DNA from: Gautieria morchelliformis
Taxonomy: Eukaryota; Basidiomycota; Agaricomycetes; Gomphales; Gomphaceae
DNA length: 64,000 nt
NCBI GenBank assembly: GCA_015179125.1
Contig: WHVA01000434.1
Location: 33,476 to 97,475, forward strand
Reading direction: 5' to 3'
In this document: positions 15,407-20,880 of the stretch, in pieces
Layout of the letters: each line of letters starts with the position of its first letter
Numbering within the stretch: position 1 is the stretch's first letter
Made by a program: the position numbers and the translations under genes
Notes under the pieces: generated by a model
What the model was told of the DNA's origin: nothing
The model's database searches: none
The model's input: only the letters and a program-made list of their open reading frames with translations

Positions 15407-15544
15407 TCGAGATGACTCAGGGGCAATGCGGCACCGCGCGCTGCCGGGATCCGAGAATAGAAACAAAGGCCTGGATTGGAAGATCGGAGCAGGCGCGCGC
15501 TTCTCGCGAAGCTTCTGGGCTTCTGCTTCCTAAGCTGATGCGTG
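15407..15544 (+). repeat. Target repeat, left half of the TIR element's site
   Basis: It matches 42658-42807, including GAGATGACTCAGGGG, CGCGCGCTGCCGGGA, CGAGAATAGAAA and GCTTCTGGGCTTCTGCTTCC. Similarity ends where the inverted repeat of the mobile element begins at 15545, and the same repeat resumes after the element at 20660. This is the left flank of an insertion. Confidence 0.8.
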
Positions 15545-15571
15545 TACGGTGCACGAGCGTCCTCAGGTCTA
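15545..15571 (+). repeat. Left terminal inverted repeat
   Basis: 27 bp, identical to the reverse complement of 20633-20659. It begins TACGGTGCACGAGCGTCCTC and ends in AGGTCTA. A small hairpin (AGTGAT..ATCACT) lies just inside near 15587. Confidence 0.9.
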
Positions 15572-15718
15572 AAATTTGAATGACGAGTGATCAAATCACT
15601 TTTGTGTACTTCCGAAACTACCGGCCTGTATTTATTTATAGTTGATGACATGTATCCCTTCGACTAGTCACGTGGCATTTTGAACTCCTTTCATCGACCA
15701 CCGTGACCGCGCAAAGTC

Positions 15719-16018
15719 CTACAGCTCCCACACGGTTACTGAGACATCTGCTTCAGGACGAGGCCTCTCAAGCTTCTGCAGGGCATCAGGGTTAAGTAAT
15801 AAACCTGCAGCAGCTTGATTAGCACCGGCGTCTAGGATGAGCTCGGATTTAGCCCACCATCGTTCGTTCGGCCTGGCCATGCTTGGAAGGCCTCTTCCGC
15901 GATTGCTGTACAAGATCAAGCTACAAAAATATTCTCGGTAAGTAAGGCTGGATGTTACTCCCGAAGTCATCGGCTGATATCCGTTAGTTTCGGACAAAGA
16001 GTGCGGCTTTAGTAGCAT
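15719..16018 (-). CDS. Small open frame near the element's left end
   Basis: A 99-codon minus-strand frame lying divergent to the alpha-kinase gene and separated from its start by about 230 bp, which could hold a shared promoter. The C-terminal half looks protein-like (KSELILDAGANQAAAGLLL, then an acidic and proline-containing tail) and is intact to its TAG stop. I do not recognise a family. An upstream exon is possible because a GT-AG pair fits between about 16047 and 16009. It may be a third gene of the TIR element or a chance frame. Confidence 0.35.
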   Translation of the reverse strand: MLLKPHSLSETNGYQPMTSGVTSSLTYREYFCSLILYSNRGRGLPSMARPNERWWAKSELILDAGANQAAAGLLLNPDALQKLERPRPEADVSVTVWEL

Positions 16019-16248
16019 CGGCGATCCTGGTGCGCATGCTTACCAGGAACTACATTGACTCCATTTTTCAGTAGGAAATATCTACTACTGTATTCCAAAT
16101 GTGAGGGTTATAGTCTGTTGAGATCGATAGTAAGCTTTTTTTCTCTTGGGCCGTTTCCGTTTTCTCTAATCACCCGAGAACGCAGGCGTCATTTTGATAT
16201 AAAAACTGTCTGGCTCATCTCATGGTATCTACAGCCCTGCCATCTGCT

Positions 16249-18771
16249 ATGACTCGCTGCCTGGGCTGTTCGCAAAACTTCCCTGGCCTTGAGTCTACAC
16301 AATCCCAGTGCGCAAAGTGCAATAAGCTGACAGCTGCTGGGTCAGACACCGAAAGAAAAGCTATCGAGGTATGTATTGTTCCGTTAACATATTTTGTGCT
16401 GAACGATGCTATACCACAGGCATTTGCTCAATGTCTAGAATGCGGTGTCGTATATCCATTCCTCAAGGAGAGGCTCTGTGGTGCATGCTGTGATGATGCC
16501 AAAACCAGTAAGTGCCGCAATCTTTAAACAGGCTATATACCTGATAACTCACCAATTCTAAGAGCCGCAAGTTTTCGATGGTTTGTATTGCCGTTATTTC
16601 AAGTCTATTTAGTTTTAATGATTGTTTAGACTCTACGACGGTCAGTGAGTATCTCGCATATAAATCCTCAATACATGAGGCTTCCGCCTCGGAACATCGT
16701 CTCAACAAGCTGAAGCGGCCCCTTAACGTCAATCTCAAGAAGGCTGGCGAGATTTTGAAGAAGAACGAGGCTTTGAAGAGGTATAATAAGACAGATTCGG
16801 TCAGTGTTCGCCTCAGATTTTGGTGTTATTCGCTTCGAAGAAAACAAGGAAACGGGAAACCACGCCAAGTAAGTGCATGTTGTCTTCCTACGAGAACGAG
16901 AAGCATCTTCTAACCCACCAATAGATCCAAATTCCAACGGTTGTTCAGAAATTTGAGGCGACGAAGCTTGCGCACACTATGATTAACGAGTTGCTCGTCT
17001 ATGCAGAAAGCATTTATGACAAGTCAGGTGGCGTTGATAAGCCGAAGCCGAAGCCGTCTTTTCTTAGGTACGTATACACCTGAAACCTGATCATTTGTAC
17101 TCTCTGCTTATGGACATGTCTTTAGAGAGAACGTTGTGTTCGCAGTAGCAAGAACCGTGTCTGATACCTCCTATCTGGATCTTGACACGGCCGAAATGCT
17201 TGAATCTACGGAGGCTCTTTATACGCATCTAGCCACCAATGGGTTGCTCTCTAGTAGGGATTTGAAAGAAAGGACGATAACGATGCAGTTGCGCTTATAT
17301 CAAGAGGCGTCACAATCAGTAAGTCTTCGGTCTTTTTTACTAGGTTCGGCAATTGCAACTGTTACCATTAGACAGACAAAGATATGGAAATCATTCGCTC
17401 ACCGAGCACATCTAGTCATTGTAATATACGCTCAATGGATCTGCGTAAACGTAAAGTTTCTGAAACCACAAATGGTAAGTCGTCCTTGTCAATTGTAAAC
17501 CGAGCACAAATTTTTTTACTTATTTATTACAAGACTCCCCACCCGCAAAGCGATACATTAGTGCCTACCGATCCCGATGTCATAATGCTAATTCATCAAC
17601 CCCAAAGCTCGTGTACGACAGTTATGCTTTCAAGAAGGAATCGTTTGTAGTCACCGCTGAATGCAAGACCATTCACATCGGAGTTGAGGATAGTGAGGTG
17701 GAAGCGATCTTAATTCCACAGAATTGGCAACGGTATATTAATACGGGGAAAAAGGAGGGGGTTTATCTAGGATACAGTTTTGTCAAGTTCGCGTTTACGG
17801 TCAGTAACTGCGGCATATCTTTACATTCTAACTGACAGTTACCAAACTCAGGGCCACATTGGCGGTAAAGAATATGCAATATTTCAAGATAAAGACATTG
17901 GTGGAATAACGGAGAGCACAAATCAACGTGACCTTTGCAATGAGCTTCATCTGCTTGCATGGGGGCAATATTTCCTTGATTCCTTTTTTGAGCGAGCAAG
18001 AAAGTACGGTGCTAAAAACATTCCAGGTTTGTTAGGTAATTCTTCAGTGCAAGGTCATGTTCATGACTATGGTCAGATATTAAATGGAATGCAGATGATG
18101 CATTCCTCAGGTGCTTGGTTGAGCCATTAGCTGAAGTTCCAGCTCATGAGCGGTCTAAACAGAGTTTACTCTTTAGCATGTTCCTAGCCACCCCACTCCT
18201 TCCATTTCCAGTCGGACCGGGAGGCATGGAACAAAAATTTTCAGGCAATAGTGAGGTTGGTGAAAATACTGACCACGTTGGGATCTGGGTGGATGCGTAC
18301 ACGCACCATACCCTTGTTGATAGTGAAGGGGAATATCTGTTTGTAGACATTCAAGGTATAGTAAATTACCATGATATTTTAGCATCAATTGATGCTATGA
18401 CGAGAAGGGTTCAAGTATTCGGACAAGTGCCTCATACTGTTTGACCCACAGGCCCATACGTATGTCCAACCTCGTTGAACTCGGTGGAATTCATAATGCT
18501 AACATGCATTAGCTATGATTATTCTTCCGGTTTCTGGGACAAAGGACCTCCCGCAATTGTGGCCTTTCTTAAAGAACACAAGTGTAACAAGGTCTGCCGG
18601 CAACTAGGGCTTCATAGGGAGATTGTGCCTCGGAAACAGGTAGATGGCTCAACTACTTCAGCCGACGCGATGCGTGGGAAAAAGGGCAACAATTCCGAAC
18701 TAGATCCTTTATCAAAACCTGACACTGTGCGCAGTGGCAAGTATTTGACGTTAAAGGAGTTGGTGGACTAA
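16249..18771 (+). CDS. Alpha-type protein kinase, 12 exons
   Basis: Exons by GT-AG sites: 16249-16368, 16420-16507, 16563-16580, 16630-16868, 16925-17067, 17126-17318, 17372-17474, 17534-17799, 17852-18026, 18095-18355, 18408-18459, 18513-18771. The total of 1917 nt is divisible by three and gives 638 aa; an upstream in-frame ATG at 16222 would add nine. The N-terminus has two Cys-pair modules (CLGC..CAKC and CLEC..CGACC, residues about 4-60) that may bind zinc. The C-terminal third is an atypical alpha-kinase (MHCK/EF2K family) domain. It has the Gly-containing segment GHIGGKEYAIF (391 on), DIQG at about 533-536, LFDPQAH (546-552) and the diagnostic zinc box H575-x-C577-x3-C581, as in TRPM7. 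The enzyme should phosphorylate Ser/Thr in helical substrates; the target is unknown. No stop or frameshift was seen. Its position inside a TIR element suggests cargo. Confidence 0.88.
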
Positions 18772-18906
18772 TACTACTTTGTTAACCCAAGTAGTTTTCT
18801 TGGTAGCTTTGTAGATATTTGGGACTATTCTAACGATTCTGATTTAATCAGCTTTTTTTTTTCTCTTTTATAACAACACCCATTAATTGTGTAGCTTGAT
18901 CGGTGC
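18772..18906. terminator. Shared 3' region of two convergent genes
   Basis: 135 bp between the kinase stop and the integrase stop, with an AT-rich core (T10 run near 18853). Both transcripts must end in or across it; overlapping 3' ends are likely. No polyadenylation signal was firmly identified. Confidence 0.35.
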
Positions 18907-20473
18907 CTACATCAGCAGTAGCATGGCTTGAAAAATGGTCCACACATTGAACATGGTCAGCTTTTGAATACCCAATGAATCATATACTTCCTGAGCATGT
19001 ACGGCATACTCAACGCTCACAAACCGAATAAGATCATCACCACCAATTGACACCATTAACTCCCTGACAACACCCTTGTTAACAGGCTGGAGGAGATTCT
19101 CAGCGCTATATTCTTTGTGCAATGCGAAGGCTTCGTTCGGTGATACACCAGAGGGTAGGACCTTGTTCCGATCCTTTCGCACACGATGGTTATTGAAGCG
19201 GTCCCGAAGCTCATCTAATTCTTGCTGGATAAGTTTTGGCCACAGCCATTGTACTAGTTTGCTGACTTTAACATTGAGTAGCGTTAGATTAGAATGCGCC
19301 ATCCTGCACTTACTATTGCTCTGGGATTGAAGAATTATATATACCATTGCCAGCTTCCCAAAAACCTTTAACGTCATCACCCCATTGAAGACGAAGTTGT
19401 AGCCAGCCTTGCTCTATCGTTGTGTTATGAACAAACTTAAGAAACTTGTGTGCAGGTACTTCATTAGTAGAGAGCTCTGGCGAGAAGTATTCCCTATGTT
19501 ATGTCAGTACAGAGGTTAGATAACATGTTTAATCCAATACCGAAGAGCATTTGCCATGCCGAAGACAGTAATAGTTTCCGTACCGCAGTCGGTCGTAGTT
19601 TGGATTGGCATCCCTGCCATAGATGAGAGTGAGCTACGAGTTTAAAGGCTCACTTACCTCCCAACGTCTCAACCAAAGATAAGTACAAGTACGCAATCGC
19701 AAGTTTTAAACGGTTGTTTGGGACAACCCAAATTCCCAGCCATTTACCTGACCATACATCGCGCAAAGCCCAGACAGGAAATCCAATCTTTGTCAGTTTA
19801 TCGTGACCATCTCCGCTCCATTCATGATGCGGGCCTAAAACTACTAATGCCTGTCGGAAGATTTTTTTCGCTGTTGGCTCTCGAAGCTCAAATCCAACTG
19901 GGTCATGTAAACGCATCTCCGATGTCACATAGTCGCTGATACCAACGGTAAGTGTTTTCCCAGTCAATTATAGATCAGAAAACTACCTACCGAGTCAAAT
20001 GGATACCATGCTCCCGCGCAATTGCTTCGACTAATAGCTTTGGGCCTCGCCGGCGGGTTGGGTCTTGTGCCATTTGGTCCAAGACAAGCTGCCGTTTCAC
20101 TGTGACAGGCAGACTACTAGTAGTTATACCACTACTTTTCAGTTCTAAGGCAGACCGTCGACGGTCTACTGTCGCTCTGCTAGATCGGCATGCAATGATA
20201 AATCAAGCTAGTATATTAGACAGATAACAGCATACCTCATCTTTATACTATGCTCAGCCCAGAGCAGTTTGCTGATCTGCTTGCCGCTTACATGCCCCCT
20301 TCGATGATATTCAACCAGGAGCGCGTTGATTCGCTCATCATCAGGTGCCGCTAAACCACAGTCTTAAGGCGATCTCTATAATTGACAGTAACATAAGACT
20401 CACGACAATCCTTATGCTTGTTTCTCCCCTCGGGATTGCGGCTATAAGGGTTATCTGCAGGAGAATCAGGCAT
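18907..20473 (-). CDS. Integrase-core (rve-like) protein, 7 exons
   Basis: Minus-strand exons by GT-AG sites: 20473-20404, 20350-20236, 20179-19991, 19935-19658, 19613-19541, 19493-19345, 19265-18907. They sum to 1233 nt, an uninterrupted frame of 410 aa. The N-terminal part is basic and helical (KRQLVLDQMAQDPTRRRGPK), as in DNA-binding regions. The catalytic core shows EWSGDGHDKL (first Asp), TTDCGTETITVFG (second Asp) and NTTIEQGW (Glu), the D,D,E triad of a retroviral-type integrase fold. After it comes QWLWPKLIQQELDELRDRFN, then NNHRVRKDRNK, as in a widespread Agaricomycete integrase-core family that is not part of an LTR polyprotein. It is the probable mobility enzyme of the surrounding 5.1-kb TIR element. 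The neighbouring alpha-kinase is convergent. The start was chosen as the first ATG giving a continuous spliced frame. Confidence 0.82.
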
Positions 20474-20632
20474 TGAAAGCCTGAGACAGCGACAAGGACG
20501 AAGTAGGGCAGTTGGATGACGTGTCAGTTGCAAGCGCTTGTGCCACGGGCCTGCCGTCGCGAGTAACTAAGGTACACAATTCAGTATTACTTATGTGAGT
20601 ATTACATTATCGCAATCTCAGTTCCGGAAATG

Positions 20633-20659
20633 TAGACCTGAGGACGCTCGTGCACCGTA
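20633..20659 (-). repeat. Right terminal inverted repeat
   Basis: Perfect inverted copy of 15545-15571, followed directly by TGCGTG (20660-20665), the same six bases that precede the left end. Only about 160 bp separate it from the integrase start codon, so that gap likely holds the promoter. Confidence 0.9.
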
Positions 20660-20880
20660 TGCGTGCCTTGTGGCGCGTGTGCCCCTTGACGTGAATCGAG
20701 CCTAAATGGGTATGGCAATATATCTGATCGCCGATCGATCACTTCGATCACGATCACGATCTGCCATGTCAGGTGGCGTGCGCGCTCTTAATGGCGGTAC
20801 ACGTTGTATGTACGTCACTGGTGCGGACAGTACCCAGCTCGATGGCACCCCGTTCTAGGCGGAGAGTGGAGGGTCGACAA
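20660..20880 (+). repeat. Target repeat, right half
   Basis: This segment matches 42808-42925: AATATATCTGATC, then CCGATCGATCACTTCGATCA, then GGTGGCGTG, GCTCTTAATGGC, GTCACTGGT. A later word, GACAGTACCCAGCTCGATG, matches 43202-43221, so about 270 bp present in the 43-kb copy are missing here. About 45 bp directly after the insertion differ from the 42.8-kb copy. Confidence 0.75.

Follow-up and report, generated by a model that had tools for sequence, protein, structure and literature searches.

A 5,115-bp stretch at positions 15545-20659 of a 64-kb window of the Gautieria morchelliformis genome (the window being the whole of the DNA analysed here, C487:33476-97475, within a genome of 122 Mb in 1,113 contigs) is very probably a two-gene DNA transposon of the IS3EU superfamily, from a branch without TET/JBP, in which an alpha-kinase gene and the transposase gene lie tail to tail. 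An earlier reading made from the letters alone (the sequence-only reading) had proposed a DNA transposon with terminal inverted repeats (TIRs), a mushroom integrase-core protein as its transposase and an alpha-kinase aboard, and this is borne out. The kind of element is not new, because Kojima 2025 (PMC12730594) already states the transposase/alpha-kinase pairing; the Gautieria element is best placed as a further example of a known two-gene IS3EU type, minus TET/JBP. The remark in the sequence-only reading that no element with this pair had been described thus falls, since that paper gives the pair for the TET+ IS3EU families. What is new here is that the pairing is frequent, deeply diverged and old within one mushroom genome.

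The TIRs (left, 15545-15571, plus strand; right, 20633-20659, minus strand), located by a repeat finder and a genome-wide TIR search, are identical at 27 of 27 positions, as had been read from the sequence, and the repeat finder stretches them to 32 nt at 94% identity. The termini read TACGG..CCGTA. TGCGTG stands on both flanks (15539-15544 and 20660-20665, unstranded), again as first read; the length of 5,115 bp given to the 'interior' is right as a figure and includes both TIRs. The left TIR is followed by a subterminal non-coding region (15572-16221, unstranded). In an empty-site comparison, a query made of the two flanks with a single TGCGTG between them aligns to a repeat at C380 (87% identity over query positions 12-149, and 85% over positions 1-191 in a second alignment). 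Small gaps occur elsewhere in the alignment, but the junction is free of them; the repeat sequence there is GCTGATGCGTGCCTTGTGGCG, containing TGCGTG once. Because this empty repeat shows a single TGCGTG and a gap-free junction, the window element is inserted with a 6-bp target site duplication (TSD). No allelic empty site turned up for the window element; the closest match to an empty site is this repeat copy, at 85-87% identity.

The TIR is not confined to the window: a genome search with the 27-mer, allowing three mismatches or fewer, gave 36 sites (17 forward and 19 reverse), and a control pattern gave 0. Within the window and 40 other stretches of the genome, 17 pairs of left and right ends could be made out. 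A TSD accompanies 11 of these pairs (4 bp once, 5 bp seven times, 6 bp twice and 7 bp once) and is absent from six. Both genes also occur in a second family, whose TIR is TACGGTGCGTGAGCACCGTCACCTCTA and whose kinase is approximately 50-60% identical. Among eight copies of the window element's own family (family A), some of them fragments, both frames are whole only in the window copy when the window's exon model is applied. For the copy at C365 the annotation gives proteins 415 and 616 aa long (P0001 and P0121), and alternative splice choices may therefore rescue parts of other family-A copies.

The alpha-kinase gene (16222-18771, plus strand) encodes 653 aa in 12 exons at 16222-16368, 16420-16507, 16563-16580, 16630-16868, 16925-17067, 17126-17318, 17372-17474, 17534-17799, 17852-18026, 18077-18355, 18408-18459 and 18513-18771. 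The IS3EU-type DDE transposase gene (18907-20473, minus strand) encodes 419 aa in seven exons at 20473-20404, 20350-20236, 20179-19991, 19935-19658, 19613-19541, 19493-19314 and 19261-18907, its coding region ending 135 bp from that of the kinase. Both models, whose splice sites were set by hand and checked by eye against annotated homologues, have stop-free frames, and all introns are GT..AG. The two intact spliced genes of the sequence-only reading are therefore upheld as open frames, with lengths corrected from 638 and 410 aa.

The 653-aa protein contains an alpha-kinase domain (PF02816; E value 6.6e-16, over the Pfam cut-off) in its C-terminal part and CxxC pairs in its N-terminal part. 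It has the alpha-kinase fold, the DxQ and DPQ motifs and the Zn-ligand H/C residues, which presumably have the roles known for them in alpha-kinases. Compared with MHCK-A, eEF2K and TRPM7/ChaK, the Gautieria kinase is transposon-encoded and has the N-terminal CxxC region and, in the predicted structure, a possible ubiquitin-like fold. It is a conserved enzyme under selection, and plausibly a catalytic one. The transposase is predicted to adopt a retroviral-integrase-like fold with the DDE residues D167, D226 and E269, and has a DDD/E core without an N-terminal HHCC motif. The PF24764 'rva_4' integrase core is detected in the window transposase with an E value of 2.1e-4 and 21.5 bits, under the cut-off of 26, and is present in 84 of the 120 homologues listed (counted by hand).

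Published descriptions of IS3EU agree with these features. IS3EU elements in general have TA..TA termini and a TSD of usually 6 bp, and the lack of HHCC is common to IS3EU, IS481EU, GingerRoot, Polinton and others (PMC10045372). The IS3EU families of rusts have TAYGG..CCRTA ends, 6-bp TSDs and TIRs longer than 30 bp, a length that the window copy reaches with its 32 nt at 94%; all TET+ IS3EU families carry TET/JBP between transposase and alpha-kinase genes that are oppositely oriented (Kojima 2025, PMC12730594). The Gautieria element shares with the TET+ elements of rust fungi and Tuber indicum the ends, the opposed gene pair and, for the rust families, the 6-bp TSD, which is that of the window copy; it differs in the absence of TET/JBP between the genes, in its agaricomycete host and in TSDs that are mostly 5 bp (PMC12730594). 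A TET/JBP (PF12851) profile search of the whole genome gave nothing over the Pfam cut-off and one weak match below it, at C773. The TA..TA termini, the 6-bp TSD of the window copy and the integrase-like transposase without HHCC are likewise those of IS3EU/GingerRoot, in a paper whose main text does not contain the word kinase (PMC10045372). Styx of Zymoseptoria (PMC10853768) is similar in its fungal, IS3EU-related DDD/E transposase, 6-bp TSD and possession of extra genes, and differs in its length of 7.9 kb and in its gene content: its four reading frames comprise a transposase, GATA and CCHC motifs and DUF3577, with no alpha-kinase among the four. Among the literature matches listed, a transposon-borne alpha-kinase was met only in Kojima 2025 (PMC12730594), within the discussion of TET/JBP, and the excerpts of PMC4164029, PMC8955403 and PMC12411881 contain nothing on a kinase-transposase pair.

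The gene pair recurs throughout the genome. Tallied as 64 kinase and 85 transposase clusters, with many minor exon rows left aside where their locus was in the tally already, the alpha-kinase loci have a convergent transposase within 5 kb in 42 cases out of 64 (median gap 404 bp), against a chance expectation of about 0.45 kinase-transposase pairs in any orientation. Convergent pairs span transposase identities from approximately 95% down to approximately 28%; at C1048 the transposase is approximately 28-35% identical in two pieces and the alpha-kinase is still convergent with it. Kinase and transposase distances over 25 loci are correlated (Mantel r 0.895, with 0 of 2000 shuffles as high), the loci being non-independent and the distances rough; family-A identities in the matrix are too low, as tblastn pieces run into introns, and the matrix serves for rank correlation only. 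Two other mushrooms point the same way: in Hypsizygus marmoreus Hypma_007390 is the kinase and Hypma_007391 the transposase, an adjacency read from the tags, and Lentinula edodes has homologues of both, each given with a longest contig of 294,822, from which adjacency is likewise deduced. The ratio of nonsynonymous to synonymous substitution (dN/dS) was taken for pairs with at least 150 codons. Between the window and C365, the 653 codons of the kinase give 0.19 and the 418 codons of the transposase 0.24. Both genes are thus under purifying selection in the least decayed comparisons.

Several observations weigh against this reading. The commonest TSD is 5 bp, versus the usual 6 bp of IS3EU, with six of the 17 end pairs lacking one. 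The predicted structure of the kinase is weak overall (mean pLDDT, the predicted local distance difference test score, 59). Other kinase loci have the transposase divergent (two), in tandem (one) or 9-11 kb away (three), and 16 of the 64 have none within 12 kb among the matches listed. Conversely, 35 of the 85 transposase loci, among the matches listed, have no kinase within 12 kb, and none of the 63 loci taken from the search with the PF24764 model lies near one, these 63 clusters being drawn from 155 listed matches. Both a transposase search and the PF24764 search have further matches beyond those listed, so that the locus counts are lower bounds. The dN/dS values of other pairs reach from 0.21 to 0.69 for the kinase (maximum window-C600) and from 0.14 to 1.13 for the transposase (maximum C327-C1004), the highest involving copies that are truncated or decayed or that align poorly (C600, C327 and C1004).

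The activity of the window copy is doubtful because conserved residues of both its proteins are changed, and the 'active' copy of the sequence-only reading is accordingly weakened. In the window transposase, S262F and R270Q, the latter adjoining the catalytic E269, alter positions that all 21 of 21 homologues conserve. Further transposase departures are Q19K (kept in 20/21), D363N (19/21) and P417L (18/19), among 99 columns conserved at 90% or more, in a tally that skips a single gap in the column of the start M (18/18). The kinase departs at G465R (11 of 11 homologues keep G) and G383V (10/11), among 53 such columns. These substitutions suggest that the copy may be less than fully active, perhaps relying on other copies. 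Its private C-to-T changes fall in CpG in 10 of 18 cases, CpG making up 444 of 2,293 CpN of the family-A majority sequence on both strands (C860, a near-duplicate of C365, being omitted from this comparison).

Since 35 of the 85 transposase loci and all 63 PF24764-model loci lack a kinase neighbour, the kinase seems to belong to one branch of these transposases; and because many related transposases stand without it, transposases of this fold do not in general need it. Relatives elsewhere in the genome do have such ends and a kinase neighbour, and the TIR is not unique to this site, so that the refuting outcome named in the sequence-only reading did not come about. Genome-wide, at least 63 separate PF24764 integrase-core clusters without alpha-kinase neighbours probably represent another transposon group.

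Loci of this kind would be expected if the kinase were a passively captured host gene, a passenger without a role in transposition. This explanation is unlikely, given that the convergent pair recurs from approximately 95% to approximately 28% transposase identity, is indicated in two other mushrooms, co-diverges in its two genes and, in the least decayed pair, shows purifying selection on the kinase comparable to that on the transposase. The kinase has the look of a permanent second gene in this transposase branch, and the label 'cargo', correct in that the element carries the gene, perhaps undersells it.

Alpha-kinases are widespread enzymes, and at 16 of the 64 kinase loci no transposase was found as far as 12 kb away; this would also suit a kinase that mainly serves the host, in signalling or defence for example, and that the transposon has spread as a useful gene. 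The copies, however, are many and mostly decayed, with only one of the eight family-A copies whole for both genes under the window's exon model. Searching with an additional, more diverged transposase moreover cut the number of kinase loci that lack a transposase from 27 to 16, so that 16 may be an upper bound. A mainly host-serving kinase is accordingly improbable.

A Ginger or Polinton relative, the comparison offered by the sequence-only reading, is far less probable again, IS3EU being the better fit. The predicted retroviral-integrase-like fold is common to all of these, and TSDs of 4 or 5 bp in Ginger2 and 6 bp in Polinton (PMC10045372) can be set beside the 5 and 6 bp that both occur here. 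The TACGG..CCGTA ends with an opposed alpha-kinase nevertheless match the description of fungal IS3EU (PMC12730594). The 4-bp TSD of Ginger1 (PMC10045372) is not that of the window copy, which has 6 bp; nor is the 4 or 5 bp of Ginger2, yet seven of the 17 end pairs have 5 bp. The element, with 5.1 kb and two genes, is also unlike Polintons. Polinton/Maverick elements are 15-20 kb long and carry protein-primed DNA polymerase and capsid genes. What speaks against Ginger and Polinton is thus the termini, the gene content and the pairing with an alpha-kinase; by its length alone, the TSD would exclude neither Ginger2 nor Polinton. Zisupton/KDZ was rejected on its 8-bp TSD (PMC12730594), versus 6 bp in the window and none over 7 bp among the 17 end pairs. 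That two unrelated neighbouring genes are framed by a chance inverted repeat is refuted by the empty site, the TSD, the 36 TIR sites against 0 for the control and the repeated two-gene copies, and deserves practically no weight.

Four copies of approximately 2.17 kb (C125, C145, C162 and C781) have an identical TIR and are 97-99% alike. They look like non-autonomous derivatives in their sequence, because their similarity to the transposase is limited to its start and they match nothing of the kinase; the first 500 bp or so of the window element matches their ends (L021, L022, L023 and L025) at 69-72%. Besides these 2.17-kb copies, non-autonomous copies of 3.1 and 5.0 kb (L024 and L026) share the 27-bp TIR and differ in their interiors. 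L026 has one TIR mismatch at one end and other long open reading frames inside, perhaps a nested element. TSDs span 4 to 7 bp across family A and B copies despite their like ends. L010 and L012 (C860 and C365) are near-identical, with the same 15 left-flank bases, 115 bp of the right-hand side copied at both ends and no TSD. Inverted near-palindromic pairs of elements or transposases are found in L035/L036 (C332) and at C278:87402-91074, either real or an effect of assembly.

The window copy (flank 15509-15544) and the second-family copy L052 (C521)/L053 (C250) follow the same position of the same repeat, the C521 and C250 insertions probably being one event that was copied. The C600 copy (L016) sits 9 bp upstream of that position in reversed orientation. 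Because the window, C521/C250 and C600 copies hit nearly the same repeat position, recurrent insertion into this repeat suggests a target preference.

From its fold and the behaviour of DDE enzymes, the transposase would bind the TIRs, excise the element and join it to target cuts staggered by approximately 5-6 bp. The kinase could act as a helper of the element, retained for phosphorylating a nuclear protein that limits transposition, which might be either the element's transposase or a host factor for silencing or repair; such a helper role has about an even chance of being correct. A wider proposal, by analogy, is tentative and somewhat short of an even chance: the kinase would be an old second gene of the fungal IS3EU lineage, its zinc-finger/ubiquitin-like/alpha-kinase product acting in trans, with either the transposase or the silencing machinery of the host as its target, as is thought for TET/JBP in TET+ elements, and much of the basidiomycete alpha-kinase enrichment, as in rusts, would then be transposon-borne.

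With pairing at 42 of 64 kinase loci and its deep divergence, the transposon's need for a kinase becomes a testable question. The alpha-kinase family is highly expanded in rusts (PMC4469406) and 2.34-fold enriched in wheat rusts (PMC5295586), and one alpha-kinase gene is among 46 genes under diversifying selection in a rust genome paper (PMC4150398). Kojima's statement and the Gautieria genome, taken together, suggest that part of the rust expansion is perhaps transposon-borne, and the alpha-kinase enrichment counted in basidiomycete genomes may by analogy consist partly of transposon genes. If this is true, much of the enrichment in basidiomycetes would reflect genes of transposons and not host signalling genes.
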